Source of the DNA: a virus
Strand: one strand, 5' to 3'
Virus record (IMG/VR): IMGVR_UViG_3300032296_002041
Span: 1-22,218 of that record
DNA: 22,218 bases
Shown here piece after piece: positions 2,606-22,218 of this stretch. The position numbers were made by a program, and so were the translations under genes. Every line of letters starts with the position of its first letter. Position 1 is the first letter of the stretch. The notes below the pieces were generated by a model that saw nothing but the letters and a program-made list of their open reading frames with translations, ran no database searches and was not told the DNA's origin.

Positions 2606-5600
2606 ATGGCTGAACCTAAGCCAAAAGGCGCACCAGTATTTCTGGAAATTCCTGCCACCGGGGAGACGATCACGCTTCCCGGTGTAACGTCGCTTAGCAA
2701 TGATGACGAACTTAAAGCTGCGGCTGACGCTTGGATTGCAAAGAACTACAAAGGCCCCCTACTTGCAGCGCCTATTGTCGCACGCACGCCGGTAGAGGGC
2801 GAGACGCAAGGCGTTGCACCGAGCGAAGAGATTAGTCTAGTCGCGAACCGGCAGCCAGAACTAACCGCGTATACCCCGACTACAATTATGGGGGGCATCT
2901 ACGATAAACTTACTTCCGGTTTTGAAACTTTAGCGGATCTAATCCCCGGTTTCGATGAACGCGATGCCGCTTCGTACGGCCGAGAGATAGTTAGGAACAT
3001 CAAAGCCGGTACCGAGGGTATACTTGGCCTTGAAACAACCGAACGTAGTGCTGGCGACATTGCAACGGGTCGCGGAACACTTGAGGATTACCTCAACGTT
3101 GGGCTTCTTGCCGCGCCGTTTGCGGCTAAACCAGTAGCGGCGGGTTTCCGTCGTGTTGCACCGGCGACTAGCGCGGCTATAGGCCGCTTTGCTACCGGCC
3201 CTGTCGCAGTTGCAGATGAAATTGCAGCAGCGGTTCCAGAAACTGCGCTCTCTCCAGAGATGGCCGCAGTTGCTAAGCCTGTTGCTCCAACCCCCGTTGT
3301 CCCAAGCACGTTGCCAAGGGCGCAGGCTGTTGAGTTACCGGAAGCCCCCGCAACAGGCACAGGCACAGGCGCTGTTTCTAAAGGAAAGTTTACGCTTGAT
3401 GATTTACTTGAAGCCCCCGCAACAGGCACACGCGCTGCTTCTAAGGGAAAGTTTACGTTTGATGATTTACTTGAAGCCCCTGTGGCCGCGGCGGCAATAC
3501 CGGAGGCAGCACCCCTAACGGGTACAGGCGCTGTTTCTAAAGGAAAGTTTACGTTTGATGATTTACTTGAAGCCCCCGAAGCGGCAGTAATCCCTGAAGC
3601 TGCGGTAGTACCACGCAATGTGGCGTATGATCTACCGCCTTCTACACCGGGAACAGGCATCCCTGCCATCGAGGCTATGCAAGTAAAGGGCCAGACGCAG
3701 CCTGTGCCTACCGCTGAAATTGGCGGTAAGGTCGCCAACTTTGCAGCAGACTATAGCAATCTCGCCGGTCTTCAGCGCCCGGCCGACATGCCGTTCTCCG
3801 AATTTTTCTATCGCCACTTCAAGGCCGGTACTCTTCCAGAGGAAGAAGTATCGAAACTCGTCACAAAGTACGACCTTAAAGACGAAGACTTGTTCGAACT
3901 TATCACGGGATCACGCCAAGGTCTTGGCGATGCCGCTCGTGTGATGCAGCGTTTCAGCATCGCCAGCCGGTATGTTCCTAAAGAAGCGGCCGACATTGCT
4001 AAACTCGGCCTTCAAGAAGCAGACGATCTCGGCTTCTGGAAACGGTTCACAAACGCATATCGCGGTGCGCTCGTATCGAGCGTGGCCACCACGATGCGTA
4101 ACGTCATATCGTCCGTAGGCCGCGTGCCTATCGACGCGGCGACGAACCTTATGGATAGCGCAATAAATGCTGCGGTAAATCCTTTTCGCCAACAGAAAGT
4201 CGGCGTCAATCCATTTGATGCAGCGGCGGTTATTACCGACCGTTTCGCTCCCGGTCGGAACACTAAGTTCTGGGAGCAGATGAAGAATGTCCAACCAGAA
4301 ATACAGAAAGAGTTGGCGGCTACTTACGCGGCGGATGTGGCGCGTGTAACCAAGAAAGACGCTTTTGCGAAAGTCGAGAAAGCCGTTGACGTTGCTAACC
4401 TCTTGAACCGCGTTAGTGAAACCGCAACGCGCAAGGCGCTGTTCCCGGTTATGCTACGCCGAGAAGCGACCCGCCTTGGTCTAGACTTTAACGAACTGGT
4501 GGACACAGGCGGTATCGCACGTCTTCCTGAAGAGGCATGGACGAAGGCGCTCGACGACACCCTTAGCTTCACTTACTCTGGTCGGTCTGAAGTTGCTGAT
4601 GGCATCAGTAAAATTCTGGATAAGATGGGCAAGATCGGGACTGTTGCCCGCGTCGTTGGCACAACGGTTATGCCGTTCCCGCGCTTCATGATGAACGCCT
4701 TGAAATTTCAGTTTGACTATAGCCCGGCGGGATTTACACGGCTGCTCTCCCCAACGACGACGCGGCTGTTTTCCCCGACTGAACTTAAAAAGATTGCCGA
4801 AGGCGATACCGGTGTTTTGTCAAAAGGGTTGATTGGCTCAACCATGTTGTACGGTGCATATCAGTTCCGCAACAGCGAAAACGCTGGGGAAAAATGGTAC
4901 GAAGGCCGCTTGCCGGACGGCCGGACTGTCGATCTCCGTCCATACTTTCCTGCGGCCCCCTATCTCTTGGTCGCCGATCTCATCAAACGAGCGCAGGATA
5001 ACACCCTCGACCAAGCGTTCGAGACGAAAGATATTCTTCAAGGTCTATCCGGTGCGCAGTTCCGTGCAGGCACGGGCCTTTATGTAACCGATCAGCTTCT
5101 CAAGGATTTAGGCGGTGCGGGCGGAAACCTTGACAAAGCCAAGACGATTGTGACGAGTTGGCTGGCGGATGTAGGTGCTGCCTTCCTGCAACCGTTCAGC
5201 ACGTTCAAAGACTTTTACGCCCAGTACGATCCGGAAGAAGCGGTCTACCGCGACACCAAGGACAACCCACTTGCCGCTTTGGCACGTCCCCTCCCCGGTG
5301 TACAGCAGGCAATGGGCGTCCCAGCCGCACCATCGGCTACGCGTGAAGGGCCAATGACAACAGATAATCCCGCGTTGCGTCAGCTTCTTGGGGCCACAAT
5401 CCGTCCGGCCAAGAACATTGTCGAAAGCGAATTGGATAAACTTGGTCTTACGCCTTACGATGTTGGGTCGAAGACTGGCGAAGTTGCTATCGACCGTCTT
5501 GTTAACCGCGATCTGGGCATCATCGCCGAGCGCGGGATCGCACCGTTGTTGCAGTCTCCTGAGTATCAGAACCTCGATAATGTCGGCAAGTCCGCAGCGA

Positions 5601-5881
5601 TTAAAGAAATTTACAGCAAGGCGCGTGAAGCAGCCAACGCTAAGTTCAACGCGGAGAACCCAGAACTTGCTTTGCTAAAGAAGTTTAAGGGCATGAACCG
5701 CGAAGAGAAGATCATGCTCAACCGCCAAATCGAAAGCACCACGGGCATGACTGCTGATACATTGTTACGTCAGTTGAGCAAGGCCCCCCTTATCAAGAGC
5801 CAAGAACAATTTGATGCACTTCCTGTCGGCACTCAATACACTGATCCCGGCGACTATAAGGTCTATACGAAAGGCAAGTAA
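2606..5881 (+). CDS. giant probable DNA-ejection/internal virion protein (1091 aa)
   Basis: It starts at ATG 2606 after AGGATTTTAA. The N-terminal 60 residues (VFLEIPATGETITLPGVTSL...ELKAAADAWI) resemble a short domain that often begins such phage proteins. Residues about 180-350 are Ala/Pro/Val-rich low complexity and carry three in-frame copies of a KGKFTFDDLLEAP unit. From about 390 onward the protein is helical, with 'AYRGALVSSVATTMRNVISS' near 490 and Gly/Ala-rich segments near 740-760 that could be amphipathic or membrane-active. I see no lysozyme or transglycosylase catalytic signature. Length, composition and position at the end of the virion block fit the large ejected core proteins of podoviruses. 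This is inference; a tape-measure-like role is the alternative. The stop overlaps the next start (TAATG). Confidence 0.6.
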   Translation: MAEPKPKGAPVFLEIPATGETITLPGVTSLSNDDELKAAADAWIAKNYKGPLLAAPIVARTPVEGETQGVAPSEEISLVANRQPELTAYTPTTIMGGIYDKLTSGFETLADLIPGFDERDAASYGREIVRNIKAGTEGILGLETTERSAGDIATGRGTLEDYLNVGLLAAPFAAKPVAAGFRRVAPATSAAIGRFATGPVAVADEIAAAVPETALSPEMAAVAKPVAPTPVVPSTLPRAQAVELPEAPATGTGTGAVSKGKFTLDDLLEAPATGTRAASKGKFTFDDLLEAPVAAAAIPEAAPLTGTGAVSKGKFTFDDLLEAPEAAVIPEAAVVPRNVAYDLPPSTPGTGIPAIEAMQVKGQTQPVPTAEIGGKVANFAADYSNLAGLQRPADMPFSEFFYRHFKAGTLPEEEVSKLVTKYDLKDEDLFELITGSRQGLGDAARVMQRFSIASRYVPKEAADIAKLGLQEADDLGFWKRFTNAYRGALVSSVATTMRNVISSVGRVPIDAATNLMDSAINAAVNPFRQQKVGVNPFDAAAVITDRFAPGRNTKFWEQMKNVQPEIQKELAATYAADVARVTKKDAFAKVEKAVDVANLLNRVSETATRKALFPVMLRREATRLGLDFNELVDTGGIARLPEEAWTKALDDTLSFTYSGRSEVADGISKILDKMGKIGTVARVVGTTVMPFPRFMMNALKFQFDYSPAGFTRLLSPTTTRLFSPTELKKIAEGDTGVLSKGLIGSTMLYGAYQFRNSENAGEKWYEGRLPDGRTVDLRPYFPAAPYLLVADLIKRAQDNTLDQAFETKDILQGLSGAQFRAGTGLYVTDQLLKDLGGAGGNLDKAKTIVTSWLADVGAAFLQPFSTFKDFYAQYDPEEAVYRDTKDNPLAALARPLPGVQQAMGVPAAPSATREGPMTTDNPALRQLLGATIRPAKNIVESELDKLGLTPYDVGSKTGEVAIDRLVNRDLGIIAERGIAPLLQSPEYQNLDNVGKSAAIKEIYSKAREAANAKFNAENPELALLKKFKGMNREEKIMLNRQIESTTGMTADTLLRQLSKAPLIKSQEQFDALPVGTQYTDPGDYKVYTKGK
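3341..3568 (+). repeat. three tandem in-frame coding repeats (69, 63 and 96 bp)
   Basis: Within the giant virion gene, units at 3341-3409, 3410-3472 and 3473-3568 each run from GAAGCCCC to TTTACTT. They share a near-identical core encoding SKGKFT(L/F)DDLLEAP (about residues 246-321 of the protein). Unit lengths are multiples of three, so the frame is kept. The third unit has a longer Ala/Pro spacer. High nucleotide identity indicates recent duplication. Confidence 0.9.
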
Positions 5882-6012
5882 TGGCCAAGAAAAGTGGTGT
5901 TAAAGATATGTCGTGGCGTCCGCAGCCGAAAGCGAAACGTCGCCACAAACCCGACGGGCTTCGCCATCGTAAGTCTTTGGGGCCACGCAGTCACTTGCGA
6001 ACTAGCTTCTAA
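5881..6012 (+). CDS. small basic protein (43 aa)
   Basis: ATG 5881 overlaps the stop of the giant gene (TAATG), and the frame ends at TAA 6010-6012. The peptide begins MAKKSGVKDMSWRPQPKAKR and is about one third Lys, Arg or His, with one hydrophobic/Trp patch near the start. Such small basic proteins can bind nucleic acid or act as virion-associated peptides, but no family is recognised. The exact coupling to the upstream gene and the consistent codon usage support a real gene. Confidence 0.6.
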   Translation: MAKKSGVKDMSWRPQPKAKRRHKPDGLRHRKSLGPRSHLRTSF

Positions 6013-6029
6013 TACTATACACATCGCCC

Positions 6030-6557
6030 ATGAAAATATGGGGCATCGATCCGGGCGCGTTCGGAGCCATTGCTATTCTGGATAAGGATAGCCGAGAACT
6101 TGTCATCATCGACATGCCTACCTTAAAGGTTAAGCGCGGGCCGCGTGTCGTCAATCAGGTTGACGCGCACATGCTGGCCGATGCGCTCCGCCCGCATGTA
6201 GACAGCGATACCAAGGCCCTCATCGAGAAAGTTTCCGCTATGCCGGGAAACGGGGTTGCTTCCATGTTCAGTTTTGGCCGGGCTGCGGGTATCGTCGAAG
6301 GTGTTCTTGCTGGCCTGTCTGTATCTTTTGAGTTGATACCGCCTGCGACTTGGATTAAGTCTATGCGCACGTTCGGAGGGAAGGACGGTAGTCGGCAGCG
6401 GGCGCAAGAGTTGTTCCCGGATTACGCCCATCTCTTCGCACGGAAAAAGGACGACGGCCGGGCCGAAGCTGCGCTTCTCGCCTGTTACGCCGCTGAGAGG
6501 GAACGACATGAACCACCTATTCGATTACCAAAAAGTCGGCGCAGACTTTCTTTGTAA
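6030..6557 (+). CDS. RuvC-like Holliday junction resolvase (175 aa)
   Basis: The protein has the RNase H-fold resolvase layout: 'IWGIDPGAFGAIAIL' with Asp7 on strand 1, 'ALIEKV' with Glu66, and the C-terminal helix 'KKDDGRAEAALLACYAA' supplying Asp142 and Glu146. These match the four acidic metal-binding positions of RuvC-like nucleases. The length is typical for phage and bacterial RuvC-type enzymes. It should cleave branched DNA during recombination or before packaging. The 3' end overlaps the helicase gene by 50 bases, suggesting coupled expression. There is no strong Shine-Dalgarno sequence before ATG 6030. A CTATAC box just upstream (6014-6019) could belong to a promoter but lacks a good -35, so I do not list it. 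Confidence 0.88.
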   Translation: MKIWGIDPGAFGAIAILDKDSRELVIIDMPTLKVKRGPRVVNQVDAHMLADALRPHVDSDTKALIEKVSAMPGNGVASMFSFGRAAGIVEGVLAGLSVSFELIPPATWIKSMRTFGGKDGSRQRAQELFPDYAHLFARKKDDGRAEAALLACYAAERERHEPPIRLPKSRRRLSL

Positions 6558-7791
6558 GAACCCCGCCGCATTCCTTGCCGATGAACAGGGCCTTGGGAAA
6601 ACACTTCAAGTTATCGCGGCCTGTGATACACTCGGCTTGACAAAGGTCGTCGTGATCTGCCCGGCCATCGCCAAGATTAACTGGCGTCGTGAGTTCGAGC
6701 GATGGGGAACCGTCGAGCGCGAAGTCAAGGTGTTCAGCTACGACAAGATCACGCAATCGAAGGAGGTCCGCAATGAAATCGCAAAGTTTGAGCCAGACGT
6801 TCTTGTGTTGGACGAGGCGCATTATCTGCGCAACCGTACTGCTAAGCGCACAAAGTATATCTACGGCCAGTATTGTCGTGGCGATGGTCTTGTTAAGTTT
6901 GCTGATCGTATTTGGTTGCTTAGCGGTACTCCCCTTCCTTCTAATGTCAGTGATCTGTGGACACATCTCAAAGCGATTTGGCAGTACCCTCTAAACTTTA
7001 CTGACTTTACATTGTATTTTTGTAAAACTTGGAATGGTAAGTTTGGATTGCAAATTCTTGGGAACAAGTCGGAACGCATGGCTGAGTTTAAGACCGTGCT
7101 AAAATCAATGATGCTCCGCCGTAAATCCGAAGTTGTGTTGAAGGATTTACCCCCAATATGGTGGCAAGATACCTCCATAGAAGTTGATAACTGGAGCGAT
7201 ACTAAGCACATTGAAGACCCACGAGAGAAGGAGGCCGTCGATGCTATCCTTGCTAACGCTCTGACAAACGAAGATTTATCCGAAAAAATAAGTAGCATCG
7301 CCCCGCATATCGCGTCACTAAGACGGCTAACGGGTGCGGCCAAGGCAGCGCCCATCGCCACACAGATAGCTGGCGAGTTGGCTGATGAAGCTTACGATAA
7401 AATCGTAGTCTTCGCCTACCACACCGACGCAATCCAGACGCTTTACGATAAGCTGAAGGACTTCAATCCCGTGGTGGTCGCAGGCGGTATGCCGACGGCT
7501 GAGCGCCAAGCGGCGATTGATAACTTCCAAACCGACCCGAAGGTGCGCGTGTTCATCGGCCAGATCACGGCGTGTTCCACAGCAATCACATTGACAGCCG
7601 CAAATCAGGTGGCGTTTGTCGAGATGGACTGGCTTAATTCTACTAACGCACAAGCCGCCAAGCGTTGCCATAGGATCGGCCAGCTAAAACCGGTGATCGT
7701 TCGCGTGTTCTCGTTAGCCAATTCGGTAGACGAACACGTCAACAAGATACTTGCGCGTAAAGCCCAGATGATTTCGGAGGCTTTAGACTAA
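6508..7791 (+). CDS. SNF2-type DEAH-box helicase/translocase (427 aa)
   Basis: This is a superfamily 2 ATPase with motifs in canonical order: Q-motif 'FDYQ' (residues 5-8), Walker A 'ADEQGLGKT' (24-32), 'VVICPAIAKINW' motif Ia region, Walker B 'DEAH' (102-105), motif III 'LLSGTP' (about 141), and motif VI 'QAAKRCHRIGQ' near residue 390. The 'HRIGQ' signature marks the SNF2 family, closest in style to short SMARCAL1/HepA-like phage helicases. It likely remodels or translocates on DNA during replication or recombination. Strong Shine-Dalgarno GAGAGGGA precedes ATG 6508, inside the resolvase gene. At 427 residues it is a minimal two-lobe helicase without accessory domains. Its last nine bases overlap the convergent HNH gene. 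Confidence 0.92.
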   Translation: MNHLFDYQKVGADFLCKNPAAFLADEQGLGKTLQVIAACDTLGLTKVVVICPAIAKINWRREFERWGTVEREVKVFSYDKITQSKEVRNEIAKFEPDVLVLDEAHYLRNRTAKRTKYIYGQYCRGDGLVKFADRIWLLSGTPLPSNVSDLWTHLKAIWQYPLNFTDFTLYFCKTWNGKFGLQILGNKSERMAEFKTVLKSMMLRRKSEVVLKDLPPIWWQDTSIEVDNWSDTKHIEDPREKEAVDAILANALTNEDLSEKISSIAPHIASLRRLTGAAKAAPIATQIAGELADEAYDKIVVFAYHTDAIQTLYDKLKDFNPVVVAGGMPTAERQAAIDNFQTDPKVRVFIGQITACSTAITLTAANQVAFVEMDWLNSTNAQAAKRCHRIGQLKPVIVRVFSLANSVDEHVNKILARKAQMISEALD

Positions 7792-8277
7792 CCTAGCAAA
7801 TTCGCCGTGAAGTTTTAGGGCTGCGCGGCAATACGCTGCGTGGGCTTCCTTTGGCGTATCGAACGTACCAAGATGGCGTTTTAGGCCGTCTTCATGTATA
7901 CTCGCGGCCCAACGTTTCCTGTTTTGGGATACGCCCTTGTATCCGGAGGTATTGTTAGACTGCGCAGGGCGGTTCATTCCGTTTTGGGATTTAGTCGCAA
8001 GTCTAAGATTATCCCATCTGTTATCTGTTTTGTTTCCGTTTATGTGGTCGATACCTGTTTCCGGCCATGCGCCATTGACTATCGCCCATGCCACACGGTG
8101 CGCTAAATATAGTTTTCCATTTACAAAAACGACACGATACCCACCACGCTGCGCGTATCCCGCAACGCCGTTATTGCGAACTCCGCTACGTGCCACACGC
8201 CAAGTAATATCGCCTGTGTCCGGATTATAAGAGAAAAGTTGACGGGCTTCTCCCGCCGTAATAAGGTCTTTGTGCAT
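7783..8277 (-). CDS. HNH homing-type endonuclease with C-terminal AP2 domain (164 aa)
   Basis: The N-terminal half is an HNH module: 'FSYNPDTGDITWR', 'AGYAQRGGYRVVFVNGKLYL', 'AHRVAWAIVNGAWP', then the core 'DHINGNKTDNRWDNLRLAT'. The C-terminal ~55 residues, from 'NTSGYKGVSQNRKRWAASI' to 'HLGTFDTPKEAHAAYC', are an AP2/ERF-type DNA-binding domain. This pairing is typical of free-standing phage homing endonucleases. ATG 8277 is preceded by strong AGAAGGAGCAGCAA. It sits on the minus strand with its stop inside the last codons of the convergent helicase gene, and downstream of a hairpin that ends the ssDNA-binding gene. It is paralogous in architecture to the gene at 17843-18343. Confidence 0.9.
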   Translation of the reverse strand: MHKDLITAGEARQLFSYNPDTGDITWRVARSGVRNNGVAGYAQRGGYRVVFVNGKLYLAHRVAWAIVNGAWPETGIDHINGNKTDNRWDNLRLATKSQNGMNRPAQSNNTSGYKGVSQNRKRWAASIHEDGLKRHLGTFDTPKEAHAAYCRAALKLHGEFARLV

Positions 8278-8306
8278 TTGCTGCTCCTTCTAAGCAGTTA
8301 AATGAA

Positions 8307-8338
8307 GGGGCCGGGGAGACTTCCAAATCCCCGGCCCC
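8307..8338 (-). terminator. GC-rich hairpin after the ssDNA-binding gene
   Basis: A perfect 11-bp inverted repeat GGGGCCGGGGA / TCCCCGGCCCC with a 10-base loop lies between the stop of the DUF2815 gene (minus strand) and the HNH gene. Read leftward it is followed by TTCATTTAAC, which is only moderately T-rich. It is therefore a terminator or mRNA-stabilising hairpin for the replication operon rather than a textbook intrinsic terminator. Confidence 0.6.
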
Positions 8339-8371
8339 AACATCTTATGACATTACTGGCGTAACGTCAAA

Positions 8372-8932
8372 TCACAAAAGGTCATCCAAATCCGAGATGT
8401 CTGCGGACGGGCGTTCCGTCGCAGTGAACTCGTCCGCAGCAGACAGACGGCCGTCCATACGGGGGCCATCGCCTACCTTCTGAAGATTGCCCAGTGAGAA
8501 GGCAACGCCATTGTTGCCGTTCACGCTGTACGCATACGCCCGCAGTGAGGCGCGAACCTTTGCACCCGGATAGATTTCCTTGGGGTCAGTAATCGGAGCG
8601 GGCTTGCCGTTCTCGCCAGCAAACTTGCTGACCACACCGGGTTGCTGCTTCGACTTGACGTTCATGAAGACCGACCCTTCAGGGTAGCCCTTCTCTTCGC
8701 CATCGTTGCGGAAAGGCATACGGATTTTGCCGCCTTCCATCAACGCCTTGGTCTTGTCTCCCCACTTCTCCTTGGCCACAGCAGCCGCCGTCGCCTTCAG
8801 TTCGGACATGTCAGTCCCGTCAAGGAATACAAGGCAGCAAGAATAAACTGGCTCACTTGCACCCGGAGGGGTCTGTGGTTCGAACACATGCGGATAAGAG
8901 ATGATTGCTTCAGGTGTAATAACTTTTGACAT
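8372..8932 (-). CDS. DUF2815-family ssDNA-binding protein (186 aa)
   Basis: It has the DUF2815 pattern: 'SYPHVFEPQTPPGASEPVYS', 'VFLDGTDMSELKATAAAVA', 'MPFRNDGEEKGYPEGSVFMN', 'IYPGAKVRASLRAYAY' and 'GVAFSLGNLQKVGDGPRMDG'. The C-terminus is acidic (DISDLDDLL). DUF2815 proteins are phage ssDNA-binding proteins of the OB-fold type, and the acidic tail is the usual contact for replication partners. I chose ATG 8932 (MSKVITPEAI) because AAGGAAACACCG precedes it; the frame is open back to 8965 inside the upstream gene. It lies 10 bases after the DUF2800 nuclease stop and shares its operon. It should coat single strands at the fork. Confidence 0.88.
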   Translation of the reverse strand: MSKVITPEAIISYPHVFEPQTPPGASEPVYSCCLVFLDGTDMSELKATAAAVAKEKWGDKTKALMEGGKIRMPFRNDGEEKGYPEGSVFMNVKSKQQPGVVSKFAGENGKPAPITDPKEIYPGAKVRASLRAYAYSVNGNNGVAFSLGNLQKVGDGPRMDGRLSAADEFTATERPSADISDLDDLL

Positions 8933-18533: not shown

Positions 18534-18692
18534 CACCCAAAATGCTATAGCGAATTTGAAAAAACCATGCACTTCTGGCCCAACCATGCACGGATGGCAG
18601 AAACAAGCCATTTTTAAGAGAGCCAAACCGTGCACGGATTTTTGCAAACCCGGCCTGAAAGGGTCAAACCATGCACGGATGGGAGTTTTACG

Positions 18693-19214
18693 TTAGTCGT
18701 CGTCAAACACACCCGGCAAGTCGTCCGCATCGAGATTATGAGAGCCGACTTGCTTGGTCGGTGTGACGTCGATGGTGACTTCTGGTTCTGGACTGTCTTG
18801 GTTTGATGACGCCAAGTTTAGCTGGCGCAGTGCATCAAGGTGGAGTTGGTTCACGTTGACTTGGACCGCTGTGGTCGGCTTGGCTTGGAACTTCTCCGGT
18901 GCTGCAACGCCAGCCAGCCATTTGCGTGTCTCGATCTTGAGCCTGTCAGCATTGGCCGATGTGTTGTCCGAGGCGTCGGCAATGTCGAGGCACTCATCCG
19001 CCCATTGGTCAGCCGCGATTGCACGGGCCTGTTTAAACCGCTCCTCCCGATCTGGGTCTTTGCGTATCCAATGATAGAGAGAAAGGTTGCTGATGTTAAG
19101 TTCACGAGCGAGGCCAGCCATTGTCAGGCCGGATGCAATCTTCTCCAGCAAAACAGTCTCACCAACCTTATCTAAGTTTGACGCAATGGTGCGCCGTTTA
19201 ATATGTCCAGCCAT
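18693..19214 (-). CDS. terminase small subunit (173 aa)
   Basis: Residues about 18-55 form the DNA-binding HTH ('GETVLLEKIASGLTMAGLAR', 'ISNLSLYHWIRKDP'). The central part 'RFKQARAIAADQWADECLDI' and 'RLKIETRKWLAGVAAPEKF' is the characteristic Sf6-type small terminase oligomerisation region ('..D.RKW.A....P.K(F/Y)'). The C-terminus is acidic (DADDLPGVFDDD). The protein recognises the packaging site and hands DNA to the large terminase. ATG 19214 is preceded by AAAGGATAAGAC. No large terminase lies downstream. The gene is instead followed by the 16-bp motif array and an HNH gene, and the virion genes are at the opposite end of the window. Confidence 0.88.
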   Translation of the reverse strand: MAGHIKRRTIASNLDKVGETVLLEKIASGLTMAGLARELNISNLSLYHWIRKDPDREERFKQARAIAADQWADECLDIADASDNTSANADRLKIETRKWLAGVAAPEKFQAKPTTAVQVNVNQLHLDALRQLNLASSNQDSPEPEVTIDVTPTKQVGSHNLDADDLPGVFDDD

Positions 19215-19225
19215 GTCTTATCCTT

Positions 19226-19270
19226 TATATGCCTCTATAAGCCCATATAAAGCCCATAGAGAGGCATATA
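19226..19270. repeat. interrupted inverted repeat between the XRE and terminase genes
   Basis: Perfect 11-bp arms TATATGCCTCT (19226-19236) and AGAGGCATATA (19260-19270) flank a 23-base centre containing AGCCCATA twice. It ends 11 bases before the terminase start, covering its ribosome-binding zone. It is probably an operator or mRNA structure controlling terminase expression, and the XRE protein encoded just upstream is an obvious candidate ligand. Confidence 0.7.
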
Positions 19271-19302
19271 GGGCGATTGCTAGGTAACTATCCCGATTGT
19301 AG

Positions 19303-19482
19303 CTATGCACGCTCCAGACCCCTTAAAAACGTCTCTAAGAGGATAGAGACTGGAGCGGGCACTGAACGGCCACCTTGCTCATAGTATCTGATCGACCGTT
19401 CGGACAGTCCTATCTTGTAGGCAAGCTGTCCTTGCGTCAGCTTTAGCCTCTCGCGTGTTGCTTTAAATTCTTCACTTGTCAT
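19303..19482 (-). CDS. XRE-type HTH regulator (59 aa)
   Basis: The frame from ATG 19482 to TAG 19303-19305 encodes an HTH_3 domain: 'EFKATRERLKLTQGQLAYKI' then 'GLSERSIRYYEQGGRSVPAP', a classic helix-turn-helix with the 'LTQ..LA...G.S...I..YE.G' signature, and a closing helix 'SILLETFLRGLERA'. It is little more than the DNA-binding domain itself. It overlaps the upstream gene by ATGA, with Shine-Dalgarno GAGGAAC. Located 88 bases ahead of the small terminase gene, with an inverted repeat between, it is a likely regulator of this operon or of late functions. Confidence 0.85.
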   Translation of the reverse strand: MTSEEFKATRERLKLTQGQLAYKIGLSERSIRYYEQGGRSVPAPVSILLETFLRGLERA

Positions 19483-19649
19483 TTGCTTTGTTCCTCAAGT
19501 CCGCGCCGGATGCCCTGCTCAACGAGGCGCATCCAGATTGTATGGTCCCAACCGCCGGACAGATATAGCTGCCCGTCGCTGTTGTCCTGCTTTTCGCATT
19601 GAGCCGCGCAAATTTGCCGTGCGGCGTGTGTTATTTCTTTATCGGTCAT
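19479..19649 (-). CDS. unknown small protein (56 aa)
   Basis: ATG 19649 overlaps the previous stop, and TGA 19479-19481 overlaps the XRE start. The protein starts MTDKEITHAARQICAAQCEK and contains 'LYLSGGWDHTIWMRLVEQGI'. It is a soluble, mixed-charge protein with two cysteines four residues apart, and no family is recognised. The end 'EEQSK' and its DNA are shared with the gene ending at 19846, so the junction sequence is duplicated. Chained ATGA overlaps on both sides support translation. Confidence 0.62.
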   Translation of the reverse strand: MTDKEITHAARQICAAQCEKQDNSDGQLYLSGGWDHTIWMRLVEQGIRRGLEEQSK

Positions 19650-19849
19650 GCTTCATCCTTTAGCGCCTTTTCGGCGTCCTCAATCAATTCAATAGGTGGG
19701 TAGCGTAGATAGGACACATGGTCTTTGCCTATCACGCCAAGCATCTCAAGAAACTCCATCAAGCGATAGGCCAAGGTTTCCCCGGCCCGTTCGATGTATC
19801 GTTCGGGCAACGCCAATTCGTCGTCCTCATCGTCGTCGTAGTAGGTCAT
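19646..19849 (-). CDS. unknown acidic small protein (67 aa)
   Basis: AAGGAACAAAGCAA precedes ATG 19849. The N-terminus is extremely acidic (MTYYDDDEDDELALPERYIE), followed by a helix 'GETLAYRLMEFLEMLGVIGK' and 'PPIELIEDAEKALKDEA'. Strong negative charge on a very small early protein is typical of DNA mimics and enzyme inhibitors, but that is only a compositional hint. It overlaps both neighbours by ATGA. Confidence 0.62.
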   Translation of the reverse strand: MTYYDDDEDDELALPERYIERAGETLAYRLMEFLEMLGVIGKDHVSYLRYPPIELIEDAEKALKDEA

Positions 19850-19983
19850 TTGCTTTGTTCCTTTTCACGTTCTGCGCGGCGTTCCGCGAATGTCTTGCCA
19901 TCGAGGCCGCGCAGCGGCCAAGCATCGTCTGACGATACGCGGTGGCTCCGGCCCATTGGCGCGGCTTGCTGCGGTTTAATCAT
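19846..19983 (-). CDS. small basic protein (45 aa)
   Basis: AAGGGG precedes ATG 19983, and TGA 19846-19848 overlaps the next start. The protein begins MIKPQQAAPMGRSHRVSSDD, continues 'WPLRGLDGKTFAERRAEREK' and ends EQSK. The C-terminal half is a charged helix. No family is recognised. Codon phase and chained overlap support a real gene. Confidence 0.58.
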   Translation of the reverse strand: MIKPQQAAPMGRSHRVSSDDAWPLRGLDGKTFAERRAEREKEQSK

Positions 19984-19986
19984 TGA

Positions 19987-20223
19987 TCAGGCCCCTTTCA
20001 AAAGTGATTTTAATTCGGCTTTGATTGCGCGGGCAGTTTCGCCTTTCCACGACGTAGCGTTAGATAGGAAATAGCGGACAACGCTTTCGGCGTCGTCATA
20101 ATAGTATTTGTCCCGGATCGTCTGCAGGCTATGCATTGCGTCAAGATAGGGAACCGCGCCGAAATAGGGCTTGGTCCAGTCGCGGCTAATATCGCGGGCA
20201 ATAATGTTTAGTGTACGGTTCAT
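19987..20223 (-). CDS. unknown phage protein of the 'ARDI..DW.KPYFGAVPYL' type (78 aa)
   Basis: I chose ATG 20223 because AGGGAGAATAAA precedes it; the frame is open to 20259. The sequence 'IIARDISRDWTKPYFGAVPY' followed by 'LDAMHSLQTIRDKYYYDDAE' and 'YFLSNATSWKGETARAIKAE' matches a small conserved hypothetical protein I know from many unrelated phages, where it is usually an early gene. Its function is not established. It is separated from the upstream gene by a structured 80-base region. Confidence 0.7.
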   Translation of the reverse strand: MNRTLNIIARDISRDWTKPYFGAVPYLDAMHSLQTIRDKYYYDDAESVVRYFLSNATSWKGETARAIKAELKSLLKGA

Positions 20224-20253
20224 TTTATTCTCCCTTACTGTTGTTGGCATTAG

Positions 20254-20316
20254 CGCCATAAACGCCGCGCCCTATTGATCGGCGCGGCTAATATGGCGGT
20301 AACGGATCAATCCGTT
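20254..20316. repeat. nested hairpins between two leftward genes
   Basis: An inner stem GCCGCGCC (20264-20271) / GGCGCGGC (20281-20288) is enclosed by an outer stem CGCCATA (20254-20260) / TATGGCG (20292-20298) with three unpaired bases on each side. Next to it AACGGAT CA ATCCGTT (20301-20316) is a 7-bp inverted repeat that spans the stop codon of the 52-residue gene. No T-run follows in either direction, so attenuation, RNA processing or protein binding is more likely than simple termination. Confidence 0.7.
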
Positions 20317-20465
20317 AAGTGTCCCTTCAACAACGCGTGAATTAAACGCGCCTCCCTTTTGCCTATCTTTTGACGCAATCTGTTATGCGTGCGGATCGCG
20401 TGATTGACGCTATCGGCGTTATATGCTGCGCCGGGTTGTTTATCGGTAATTATAAAGCTTTTCAT
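20307..20465 (-). CDS. small basic protein (52 aa)
   Basis: AGAAGGGATATGAA precedes ATG 20465, one base after the upstream stop. An earlier in-phase ATG belongs to the upstream reading frame. The protein begins MKSFIITDKQPGAAYNADSV and is rich in His, Arg and Lys afterward ('HAIRTHNRLRQKIGKREARL'), ending 'HALLKGHLTD'. It may bind nucleic acid. No family is recognised. Confidence 0.62.
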   Translation of the reverse strand: MKSFIITDKQPGAAYNADSVNHAIRTHNRLRQKIGKREARLIHALLKGHLTD

Positions 20466-20466
20466 T

Positions 20467-20655
20467 TCATATCCCTTCTCTTGCATAGCCGTAATCTTTC
20501 CAGCGCGGGCCGGTTAACGATCGCACAAGCTCGCGCTGTATCCAATGATAGCGCCAGCGCGCTTGGTTATAGGTTAAGCCGGGCCATGCTAGCGTCTCGC
20601 CATTATCCAGATTGATATACGCCCGGAATAGATCGCTTGTTGTTTGTTTAGTCAT
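20467..20655 (-). CDS. unknown small protein (62 aa)
   Basis: AAGGGGAAAGCATA precedes ATG 20655. The sequence 'DLFRAYINLDNGETLAWPGL' followed by 'TYNQARWRYHWIQRELVRSL' suggests a strand pair and an amphipathic helix rich in Arg and Trp. It resembles short conserved hypothetical proteins of phage early regions ('..F..Y...GE...WPGLT..QA...Y'), but I cannot name a family. It lies directly downstream of the GP88-type gene in the same operon. Confidence 0.65.
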   Translation of the reverse strand: MTKQTTSDLFRAYINLDNGETLAWPGLTYNQARWRYHWIQRELVRSLTGPRWKDYGYAREGI

Positions 20656-20667
20656 TATGCTTTCCCC

Positions 20668-21504
20668 TTATCCTACAACAAAGCCGGATTGATCGCGGCG
20701 TGCCTTGCCCTTAGCGTATAGCGCAACAACGACGCCCTTAGGATCCAAATGCCTTATGTCGGTGTCATCACCGTCAACAACTGGCAGGCCAAGAAACGTA
20801 TCGCCATTGGCAAGCATAGCGTTAACGATCGCGCGATCGCGAAACACAACGGCGATCCGCTCGCCATTGGCAACAGCTTTAGCGACATAGGGCACATAAT
20901 CTGCGACGCCGCTATAGCTAAATGTTAGATCATAATTAGCCGGTATATGCTTGCGATTAGCGATTTTCGTATAATCGTAAAACTGGATATCGGGCAAAGC
21001 TTGCATAATGTTAGCGTACGAATAGCCGATAGCGACATTTTCCCAACGGATATCGCTTGTGCCGTTTAGACGCACAATAAGCTTATATCCTTGACGTTCG
21101 GCTTTAGCGCGCTCGCGGATCAATTCATTATGCAATTGGTTCATGAATAGATCGCGATATTGATTGAAGTATAGCGTCTTACGCAAGCGCGAAAGCATAA
21201 CATTAGACATAGCGCCGCGACCGGCGGTAAATAGGCAAGCTTTCTCACAGCCGGCTGTTTTTGCCATAGCGCACAATTGCACGCCGCTTTGCATTGCGGG
21301 CATTAGATAAAGGATCGCCGTTTTGACGCCGTATTTTTCGCCCTTGATCGTTTTAGCGTTTGTATCAATCCCTAAAAGCTTTTCCGGGAAGCGGCTAAAC
21401 AACGAACGGTTATGATCGTTACCTAATATCTGCAATTGGATATCCAGCGACAAGCCGGAAATGTCATATGCTAGCGTATTTTCGATTTTAGTTTGCATTA
21501 ACAT
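20668..21504 (-). CDS. GP88-family protein (278 aa), function unknown
   Basis: The pattern matches the phage 'gene product 88' family (PF17338): 'AILYLMPAMQSGVQLCAMAK', a cysteine triad C78-x7-C86-x3-C90, 'FTAGRG', 'VMLSRLRKTLYFNQYRDLFM', 'VRLNGTSDIRWENV', 'IQFYDYTKI', 'YDLTFSYSG', 'IAVVFRD', 'LGLPVVDGDDTDIRHLDPKG' and 'ALYAKGKARRDQSGFVVG'. The family is widespread in actinobacterial and other phages. The closely spaced cysteines suggest an Fe-S or metal site, and the conserved acidic/aromatic motifs suggest an enzyme. No reaction is established to my knowledge. ATG 21504 follows AAGGGTGAG; ATG 21498 is an alternative start. Its codon and base-word usage (many CGCTA words) differs from the replication genes. 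Confidence 0.82.
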   Translation of the reverse strand: MLMQTKIENTLAYDISGLSLDIQLQILGNDHNRSLFSRFPEKLLGIDTNAKTIKGEKYGVKTAILYLMPAMQSGVQLCAMAKTAGCEKACLFTAGRGAMSNVMLSRLRKTLYFNQYRDLFMNQLHNELIRERAKAERQGYKLIVRLNGTSDIRWENVAIGYSYANIMQALPDIQFYDYTKIANRKHIPANYDLTFSYSGVADYVPYVAKAVANGERIAVVFRDRAIVNAMLANGDTFLGLPVVDGDDTDIRHLDPKGVVVALYAKGKARRDQSGFVVG

Positions 21505-21532
21505 ATTGTCTCACCCTTATGTTGTATTGATA

Positions 21533-21748
21533 TTATAAATGAATAATGCCGGTATCGGCCATTAGCGTAGCGTAATGCACCGGGCGTTCGTACAAGCCGG
21601 TAACGCCGTCGCGATAAATAGATATCCAACGACCGGCGATAGCAAAGCCGATAGTCGCGCCATAAGGCAAGCTGGCAGTCACCGGCCATATATCGGTTAA
21701 GCTTTCGCTATCCAACGCGCCGTTAAGCGTTTCAAAATAGTTTTGCAT
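21533..21748 (-). CDS. unknown small protein (71 aa)
   Basis: I chose ATG 21748 because AAAGGGGGAAAG precedes it, inside the last codons of the upstream gene; the frame is open to 21781. The protein starts MQNYFETLNGALDSESLTDI and continues 'WPVTASLPYGATIGFAIAGR' and 'WISIYRDGVTGLYERPVHYA'. It reads as a small beta-rich protein with Gly/aromatic turns. No catalytic residues are evident and no family is recognised. Confidence 0.62.
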   Translation of the reverse strand: MQNYFETLNGALDSESLTDIWPVTASLPYGATIGFAIAGRWISIYRDGVTGLYERPVHYATLMADTGIIHL

Positions 21749-21749
21749 T

Positions 21750-21863
21750 TTACTTTCCCCCTTTATCGTTGCGGCTTGCAAACGCGAAGCCTGCTAACGT
21801 GCAAGCAATCCAAATAAACGCAAACGCGTTAAACGGTATATATTGTGATAAATCGAATAGCAT
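21750..21863 (-). CDS. single-pass small membrane protein (37 aa)
   Basis: ATG 21863 follows AGGGACTTTCAA. The protein begins MLFDLSQYIPFNAFAFIWIA and continues CTLAGFAFASRNDKGGK. Residues about 9-29 form one hydrophobic helix, with a positively charged C-terminal end (RNDKGGK) expected in the cytoplasm. It is the first gene of the leftward operon and is followed by the next start after one base. Small membrane proteins at the head of early operons are common in phages. No specific role can be read. Confidence 0.65.
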   Translation of the reverse strand: MLFDLSQYIPFNAFAFIWIACTLAGFAFASRNDKGGK

Positions 21864-21896
21864 TTGAAAGTCCCTATTTCGTTGTTACTAACCCGC

Positions 21897-21925
21897 CAAT
21901 AGGAACAATGTGCCGGTTCAGTCAA
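21897..21925 (-). promoter_or_regulatory. candidate leftward promoter P1
   Basis: On the minus strand TTGACT (21925-21920) is followed after 17 bases by CTATTG (21902-21897). Transcription would start about 27 bases ahead of the first gene of the operon (21863). The -10 and most of the spacer coincide with the first 19-bp direct repeat. Confidence 0.55.
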
Positions 21926-21931
21926 TAACAA

Positions 21932-21960
21932 AATGCAATTCAATTGAAAACAATTGTCAA
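21932..21960 (-). promoter_or_regulatory. candidate leftward promoter P2
   Basis: On the minus strand a consensus TTGACA (21960-21955) is followed after 17 bases by TGCATT (21937-21932), a poor -10. The -35 starts five bases after the unique GANTC site and the 20-bp palindrome, so an activator bound there could compensate for the weak -10. Confidence 0.45.
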
Positions 21961-21966
21961 CAATCG

Positions 21967-21986
21967 AATCACATTCGAATGTGATT
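21967..21986. promoter_or_regulatory. perfect 20-bp palindrome (operator candidate)
   Basis: AATCACATTCGAATGTGATT reads the same on both strands. Its left end overlaps GAATC (21966-21970), the only GANTC I find in the window. It lies just upstream of the leftward TTGACA and overlaps the weak -35 position of the rightward TATAAT, a position suited to a two-way switch. Confidence 0.75.
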
Positions 21987-22024
21987 GCCTTGTCTATATA
22001 ATATAAAGCAACAGGAACCATGTG

Positions 22025-22052
22025 CCGCTTTATAGCGGTGAATAGTCACCGC
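22025..22052. repeat. two mutually exclusive short hairpins
   Basis: CCGCT-TTAT-AGCGG (22025-22038) and GCGGTGA-ATAG-TCACCGC (22035-22052) share the GCGG segment, so only one can form at a time. Such overlap is typical of attenuators, but no leader gene is visible in the window. Confidence 0.5.
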
Positions 22053-22150
22053 CGCGCTTCCGTTTTCGCGTGCCTCTGACGCCATTTGGTCACTAACTAA
22101 TACGCTGTTACAGCGCGAAACCCGCAGAAATACTAGGCTTTTTACATATA

Positions 22151-22182
22151 GGGGGGTGGGGGTGCTTTAAATTTAACCCCCC
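22151..22182. repeat. G-tract / C-tract hairpin near the window edge
   Basis: GGGGGGT (22151-22157), followed by GGGGGT, can pair with ACCCCCC (22176-22182) across an AT-rich loop containing TTTAAATTTA. A second C/G-rich stretch follows to 22206. It may be a terminator for transcription entering from the right, or a structured end region. Confidence 0.5.
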
Positions 22183-22218
22183 CCGGCCCGGCCTTGCGCG
22201 GGGGGCGTGTGCGTATAA

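Follow-up and report, generated by a model that had tools for sequence, protein, structure and literature searches.

The window, by which we mean the whole stretch of DNA analysed here, is a virus record of 22,218 bases whose minus strand carries an open frame at 20668-21504 that encodes 278 amino acids plus stop. The encoded protein belongs to the GP88 family: Pfam PF17338 aligns from model position 6 to 227 of 230 at 142 bits, against a gathering cut-off of 24.4, PHROG 1617 (phrog_1617) matches at E 7.5e-68, and no Pfam family besides GP88 was found at E <= 1. NCBIfam gave no match to the window protein at E <= 10 and none to two other GP88 proteins at E <= 1. The motifs quoted for this protein in a first-pass annotation, VRLNGTSD (residues 144-151), FYDYTK (175-180) and PVVDGDDTDIRHLDPKG (241-257), are all present, and the three cysteines singled out there do lie at residues 78, 86 and 90. 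A literature search, mostly at the level of titles and the beginnings of abstracts, found no paper that assigns a reaction to the GP88 family or calls it a radical-SAM-type enzyme. The Gp88s in the available parts of PMC11797047 and PMC9339283 are gene numbers in cluster K phages, and in the available parts of PMC12445080 and PMC12429752 TcmP appears only in tables.

All neighbours described here are likewise encoded on the minus strand. Upstream of GP88 lies an ORF of 82 aa with no family match (21533-21781). Downstream follow an ORF of 62 aa with no family over cut-off (20467-20655), a phrog_13953 small protein (19987-20259, E 4.9e-29), a small helix-turn-helix regulator (19303-19482, with HTH_31 at 31.3 bits and HTH_3 at 30.1 bits, both over cut-off) and the terminase small subunit (18693-19214, Sf6_terminase 60.4 bits). 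Of 276 loci, 39 (with the window's locus counted and redundancy kept) have a phrog_13953 relative on the same strand as GP88, and in 35 of these it lies within 700 bases downstream. An ORF similar to that of 62 aa also follows GP88 in L082, a locus whose GP88 protein is 98% identical to the window protein: there, GP88 points away from an upstream frame that, judging by its sequence, we take as the terminase large subunit, with a possible recombinase frame and small ORFs between the two. Elsewhere, the window encodes DNA polymerase A, an Enc34-type ssDNA-binding protein, a DUF2800 protein with a PD-(D/E)XK match, a D5-type helicase and an SNF2-type helicase; no RNA family and no tRNA was found in it.

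The first-pass annotation had placed the gene in an early leftward operon of a probable alphaproteobacterial phage, in the company of small possible anti-host genes. The early placement is plausible; an early promoter here is not supported, with six promoter-like sites in 18600-22218 versus 5.0 +/- 2.0 in shuffles. Nothing found in the window supports anti-host roles for the small neighbours, nor is an alphaproteobacterial host established: the closest named relative among the matches listed belongs to a Limnohabitans phage (52%), and the best matches of the window's DNA polymerase are two uncultured phages, followed by a Janthinobacterium phage. As a general rule, a position of GP88 as first gene was rejected: a divergent gene precedes it in 28 of 95 non-redundant viral loci versus 140 of 531 other ORFs (p 0.53), and a gap of at least 300 bases in 9 of 95 versus 40 of 531 (p 0.53). 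In two cluster A mycobacteriophages the gene is second from the right end (Peaches gp85 of 86, LHTSCC gp90 of 91); the available part of PMC6550527 places the early promoter Pleft close to the right terminus, L5 gene 89 being the first coding sequence that follows.

GP88 was found in 267 named phage records, 235 of them from Mycobacterium phages; the earlier statement that the family is known mainly from actinobacterial phages reflects sampling, and the other hosts are varied, including phages of Pelagibacter, Roseobacter, Rhizobium, Mesorhizobium, Caulobacter, Stenotrophomonas and Puniceispirillum, with further matches listed in Xanthomonas and Limnohabitans phages. Scans of virus contigs returned GP88 in 269 of 276 stretches and, in two further scans, in at least 595 of 599 and at least 595 of 600; 80 loci were kept from each scan. 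Bacterial or archaeal assemblies yielded 40 GP88 loci from 92 stretches, and these loci may include prophages or phage contigs; plasmids gave a single match. Nearly all of 60 named records listed carry the annotation "hypothetical protein", with two "Gp37/Gp68-like", one "minor head protein" and one unannotated; two marine fosmid phage genes were labelled "Gp37/Gp68-like", the name of DUF5131, by their depositors. Among the individual loci, three planctomycete assemblies (L184, L187 and L186, at about 7190-8830) have GP88 with a similar overlapping upstream ORF of 273-287 aa, and one planctomycete genome (G008) carries two GP88 copies. In phage HMO-2011 the gene after GP88 (L336, 1550-1951) matches Pfam Phage_L5_gp82, so that two families known from mycobacteriophages are also neighbours in a marine phage.

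Conservation was assessed on 126 sequences of less than 75% identity, the window protein included, drawn from 276 GP88 ORF matches longer than 150 residues. The cysteine triad C78-x7-C86-x3-C90 (21235-21273), which in the structural model follows strand 1 (residues 60-65), is kept almost without exception: C78 and C90 in 126 of 126 sequences and C86 in 125 of 126. The same holds for R145 and D151 (126/126 each) in the segment R145-L-N-G-T-S-D151, which spans the end of predicted strand 2 and the next loop (21052-21072), and for Y176, D177 and Y178 (126/126 each) and K180 (124/126) in Y176-D-Y-T-K180 at the end of predicted strand 3 (20965-20979). Further conserved positions are the lysines of K51-x2-K54 ahead of strand 1 (21343-21354; K51 123/124, K54 117/124), N190-Y191...S196 in predicted strand 4 (20917-20937; N190 and Y191 124/125, S196 125/125) and G245-D-D-T-D249-I-R251 in the loop after predicted strand 6 (20752-20772; D249 and R251 125/125). 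This conservation is not chance. Departures from it include the following: in LHTSCC gp90 and Peaches gp85 of the cluster A phages, YDYTA replaces YDYTK, placing alanine at position 180, and at locus L176 (7992-8702) the middle cysteine is changed to tyrosine with the other motifs kept, the sole such member of the 126 and a natural test of whether the triad is needed.

GP88 has three conserved cysteines in one loop, as is the rule in the radical SAM superfamily, and lacks the canonical CxxxCxxC motif: C-x5..9-C-x3-C holds in 268 of 270 GP88 ORFs (x7-x3 in 167, x6-x3 in 88, x5-x3 in 7, x9-x3 in 6, x6-x2 in 1 and none in 1). Variant cysteine spacings also occur in the accepted radical-SAM members ThiC, HmdA and PhnJ, for which reason we call GP88 a divergent relative and not a canonical member.

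The fold predicted by AlphaFold2 (pLDDT 85 from 33 sequences; mean pLDDT 93.3 and pTM 0.90 from 71 sequences) points the same way. From residue 60 on, DSSP assigns to the model strands of at least three residues at 60-65, 141-145, 174-179, 191-196, 217-221, 240-244 and 259-263; the cysteine loop (78-90) comes after the first of these and is followed by long helices. Strand order and cysteine position fit a partial (beta/alpha)6 barrel. Foldseek against the PDB gave no match at E <= 0.001 for either model, and its top rows are mostly glycosidases and sugar epimerases, every E being above 0.001. When 991 Foldseek candidates were re-aligned with VIA-align 2 and the 50 best entries listed, radical-SAM enzymes filled ranks 1-15, with nine kinds represented: PFL activase, QueE, spore photoproduct lyase, NifB, viperin-like, TYW1, EpeE, SkfB and TigE. 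The leading entry is PFL activase 8fo0 (Z 6.9, rmsd 4.2, 162 aligned), and the first entry of another type is 5tcb, the PelA hydrolase domain, at Z 4.7. With 19 radical-SAM entries among the 50, the chance of their filling ranks 1-15 is 1.7e-9 under an assumption of independence that these entries do not satisfy; the less confident, shallower model has radical-SAM entries in ranks 1-10. All Z values are below 8, a range in which the tool warns of common arrangements, and the fold match alone is therefore not proof. The comparison with radical-SAM folds proposed in the first-pass annotation favours these enzymes by rank and stays modest in score. In a viral model library 14 proteins match at E <= 0.001, six of them longer than 400 aa, and a Campylobacter phage "putative radical SAM protein" stands at rank 17 (E 0.013).

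Sequence comparison connects GP88 to radical-SAM proteins in two steps, the first of which leads to DUF5131. When Pfam GP88 was run against 385 genomes of one class and 294 of a phylum, 10 and 25 genomes, respectively, had matches at E <= 0.001, many of them weak. Eleven of 12 loci were examined and comprised four clear GP88 genes (L426-L429, two of which were already in the collected set), four DUF5131 genes and three with weak GP88 matches only. On the DUF5131 proteins L423, L425, L432 and L433 (four of six scanned, these four having been picked by the GP88 search) Pfam GP88 scores 25.3-31.5 bits in a separate Pfam scan (cut-off 24.4; E 2e-7 to 1.6e-5). The match starts within two residues of the first motif cysteine in L423 and L433, eight residues ahead of that cysteine in L432 and clearly beyond it in L425. 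L191 and L192, DUF5131 proteins chosen independently of the GP88 search, have no GP88 match. Three divergent proteins (L424, L430 and L431) score 30.6-39.6 bits for GP88, over the cut-off, have no DUF5131 match and weakly resemble PHROG 1392; to judge from these three sequences, the superfamily appears wider than its Pfam names.

The second step was examined with hhalign, using profiles of 94 DUF5131 sequences and of 28 SplB-like proteins filtered for CxxxCxxC. These two align at 96.9% with E 1.7e-10 and a score of 77, whereas none of 74 further comparisons in forward or reversed orientation exceeded 30; a mixed profile of 30 radical-SAM proteins reached 26.3 with DUF5131, which is inside the control range. 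The alignment places GCDKISAGCKFCYA over GCTH---GCIYCDS, FVNSMSD over GTGSMTD and LTKR over LTKS, and shows that DUF5131 is homologous to SplB-like radical-SAM proteins. Because of it, we regard DUF5131 as related to radical-SAM proteins, its cysteine motif carrying an insertion of three residues, and the entire family has the look of a radical-SAM family so altered. NCBIfam rSAM_mob_pairA (rSAM mobile pair protein A) also matches three DUF5131 proteins, with E values of 1.5e-21, 1.4e-10 and 1.1e-26 and scores short of its equivalog cut-off (355 bits); pairB matches one of the three at 1.4e-4. At L443 (1477-3083, minus strand), a true rSAM mobile pair protein B gene (592.6 bits) adjoins a DUF5131-like ORF of 236 aa, which by eye has C-x3-C-x2-C, TGMSD, LTKR and a DUF5131-like remainder.

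Direct comparison of GP88 itself gave less. Its profile scored 20.5 against DUF5131 and 22.1 against SplB, within controls (reversed controls up to 24.5), and GP88-DUF5131 scores of 19.8-20.7 overall are not above unrelated or reversed controls where these were run. Broadened profiles (134 and 8 sequences) rank SplB-like and mixed radical-SAM proteins first, respectively, though marginally, with single-comparison E values of 0.013 and 0.0011. Our own GP88 profile, which is narrower than Pfam's, found at E <= 1 one of the four Pfam-matched DUF5131 proteins (L425, E 0.0031) and none of the 94-sequence DUF5131 set. At E <= 10 it found 13 of 94 DUF5131 proteins, 3 of 28 SplB-like proteins, 15 of 715 neighbour proteins and 1 of 94 shuffled sequences, an enrichment over neighbours with Fisher p 2.7e-6 for DUF5131 and 0.027 for SplB-like proteins; no member of either set is individually significant, the lowest E being 1.4, and one neighbour control reached 0.64. 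Conversely, none of 33 GP88 members matches Radical_SAM PF04055 or DUF5131 PF07505 at E <= 10, and neither family is among 25 listed for 71 GP88 members. Sequence searches with the GP88 and DUF5131 profiles retrieved no solved structure at E <= 0.001, and the SplB-like protein L442 retrieved no radical-SAM chain from the PDB by sequence, its best matches being triosephosphate isomerases (E 0.081). The GP88 segments R145-D151 and Y176-K180 are proposed counterparts of DUF5131 SMSD and SplB-like SMTD and of DUF5131 LTKR and SplB-like LTKS, respectively, in a GP88-DUF5131 alignment that is weak. Taken as sequences, GP88 proteins are best read as a further divergence from DUF5131 and its radical-SAM relatives.

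Within phage genomes, GP88 is an accessory gene. In LeoAvram, the complete record of 47,079 bases contains no GP88 match, and five of five other phage records searched do contain one; the LeoAvram recombination directionality factor gene starts with 66 bases that match the start of Peaches gp85. At this site (L419, 1366-1701) a natural deletion fuses the first GP88 codons to the directionality factor gene, the intervening genes being gone, and GP88 is therefore dispensable in at least one isolate. In Tunturiibacter phage Tunturi_5, gp272 (L333, 6398-7735) is a fusion of InPase (117 bits) and GP88 (142 bits) domains and is encoded next to a JAB protein and a 1489-aa NUDIX-ART-GNAT protein. The three are annotated as "minor head protein", "minor tail protein" and "MutT/NUDIX hydrolase", respectively, of which the first two labels look doubtful. 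The InPase domain of this jumbo-phage fusion is typical of "polyvalent" proteins, which are probably injected. No relatives of the fusion were found; a search with the long GP88 protein L291 returned L291's own contig only. In L291 (1319 aa; 4831-8787), a lysine-rich phage protein with GP88 in its middle, and in L188 (577 aa), GP88 is the sole Pfam domain at E <= 0.1, and the window protein, too, has the GP88 domain only and lacks the several domains of a polyvalent protein. Neither radical SAM nor gp88 appears in the main text, as far as available, of the polyvalent-protein paper PMC5512222, nor in the available parts of PMC7824862 and PMC9503650. These phage contexts, few in number and not amounting to a statistical association, speak for an accessory part in the contest between phage and host.

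Taken together, GP88 is a real, well conserved viral family and most likely a divergent radical-SAM-type enzyme; the earlier suggestion of a metal or Fe-S enzyme is supported in its Fe-S, radical-SAM form, indirectly, by the predicted fold and the two-step link to SplB-like proteins. We infer the following mechanism: GP88 would adopt the radical-SAM superfold, a partial TIM barrel, in which a [4Fe-4S] cluster is held by the three conserved cysteines of the loop that follows strand 1. The binding site of S-adenosylmethionine would lie at the C-terminal strand ends, by the loops R145-D151, K180, S196 and D249-R251, and cleavage of S-adenosylmethionine would then start radical chemistry. For the phage, GP88 would serve as an accessory enzyme, probably an early product, which chemically modifies a molecule of host or phage. 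We favour an early, host-directed modification and, from context, a nucleotide or nucleic acid as the target, serving takeover or counter-defence; substrate, timing in this phage and counter-defence are likewise what we infer. As a whole, we hold this reading of GP88 as a divergent radical-SAM-type accessory phage enzyme to be probable.

The alternative with the best claim to attention, unlikely as we consider it, keeps the radical-SAM-like fold and removes the SAM radical chemistry: the triad would hold zinc or a structural cluster, and the protein would act by binding or by another reaction. Such a protein would accord with the non-canonical cysteine spacing (x3 before the last cysteine), with the missing Pfam Radical_SAM match and with the loss of the YTK lysine in both cluster A phage members examined. 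What argues for retained chemistry is that polar residues at several strand ends are conserved as strongly as the cysteines, which suggests an enzyme, and that the likely relatives, the SplB-like proteins (28, filtered for that motif), carry CxxxCxxC. An enzyme that modifies the phage's own DNA and renders it nuclease-resistant seems distinctly less probable: in Caulobacter phage Sansa a pair of DNA methyltransferase genes stands immediately before GP88, and in phage Peaches a pair follows it at a distance of about 2 kb, but no methyltransferase was seen beside GP88 in the window, and the neighbour clusters of 124 loci, their functions mostly unassigned, contain no shared DNA-modification partner. 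Slightly more improbable still is an unrelated TIM-barrel metalloenzyme of epimerase, isomerase or hydrolase type with a cysteine metal site, whose likeness to radical-SAM enzymes would be that of a common barrel; the Foldseek top rows and the Z values below 8 would be expected of it, and the ranking of nine radical-SAM enzyme kinds above every other barrel, together with the DUF5131 link, speaks against it. Least probable is an early growth-inhibiting host toxin with incidental chemistry. In LHTSCC, gp90 has neighbours on both sides that are toxic on expression, gp89 (68 aa, toxicity index 4) and gp91 (39 aa, index 5), but is itself absent from the table of 45 toxic genes in the available part of PMC7474061, whose 193 tested genes need not include it.

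The radical-SAM-type reading of GP88 may extend further. Tentatively, and with considerable doubt, we suggest that GP88, DUF5131 and their kin form a large virus-borne radical-SAM branch with an expanded cysteine motif (C-x5..9-C-x3-C in GP88), which might act early in phages of many phyla and, in some jumbo phages, be delivered inside polyvalent proteins, altering a host nucleotide, nucleic acid or protein against defence. If GP88 is of radical-SAM type, a viral family of "unknown function" gains a concrete, testable chemistry, and the range of proteins that annotation pipelines count as radical SAM would broaden to include a cysteine motif with x3 before the last cysteine. The genes are common, with 267 named phage records and at least 595 virus-contig relatives, and to our knowledge radical enzymes dedicated to phage infection have hardly been described. 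Genetic work in M. smegmatis is straightforward, since the gene is present in LHTSCC and Peaches, both of them cluster A mycobacteriophages.

Compared with known systems, the window protein shows no notable difference from Pfam GP88 and PHROG 1617: the match is nearly full-length, and motifs and cysteine triad are common to both. DUF5131 (PF07505, "phage Gp37/Gp68", PHROG 2045) shares with GP88 three cysteines, [ST]D and TK in the same order, [ST]D and TK following the cysteine motif at median distances of 59 and 87 residues in GP88 and of 47 and 77 in DUF5131, as measured with regular expressions chosen after the motifs were seen. It differs in its cysteine spacing, C-x6-C-x2-C instead of C-x7-C-x3-C, and its model was not seen to match GP88, although the Pfam GP88 model matches some DUF5131 proteins. 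PFL activase, QueE and spore photoproduct lyase are the best structural matches to the GP88 model (best Z 6.9, 6.2 and 6.1, all below 8), at 9-13% identity and with another cysteine spacing. The SplB-like proteins, relatives of TIGR04470 (rSAM mobile pair protein B), have the canonical CxxxCxxC and a significant direct match from DUF5131 only, not from GP88; their fold class is like that predicted for GP88, and L442 has the same order of elements, with the cysteine motif followed by SMTD (TD 44 residues on) and LTKS (74 on).
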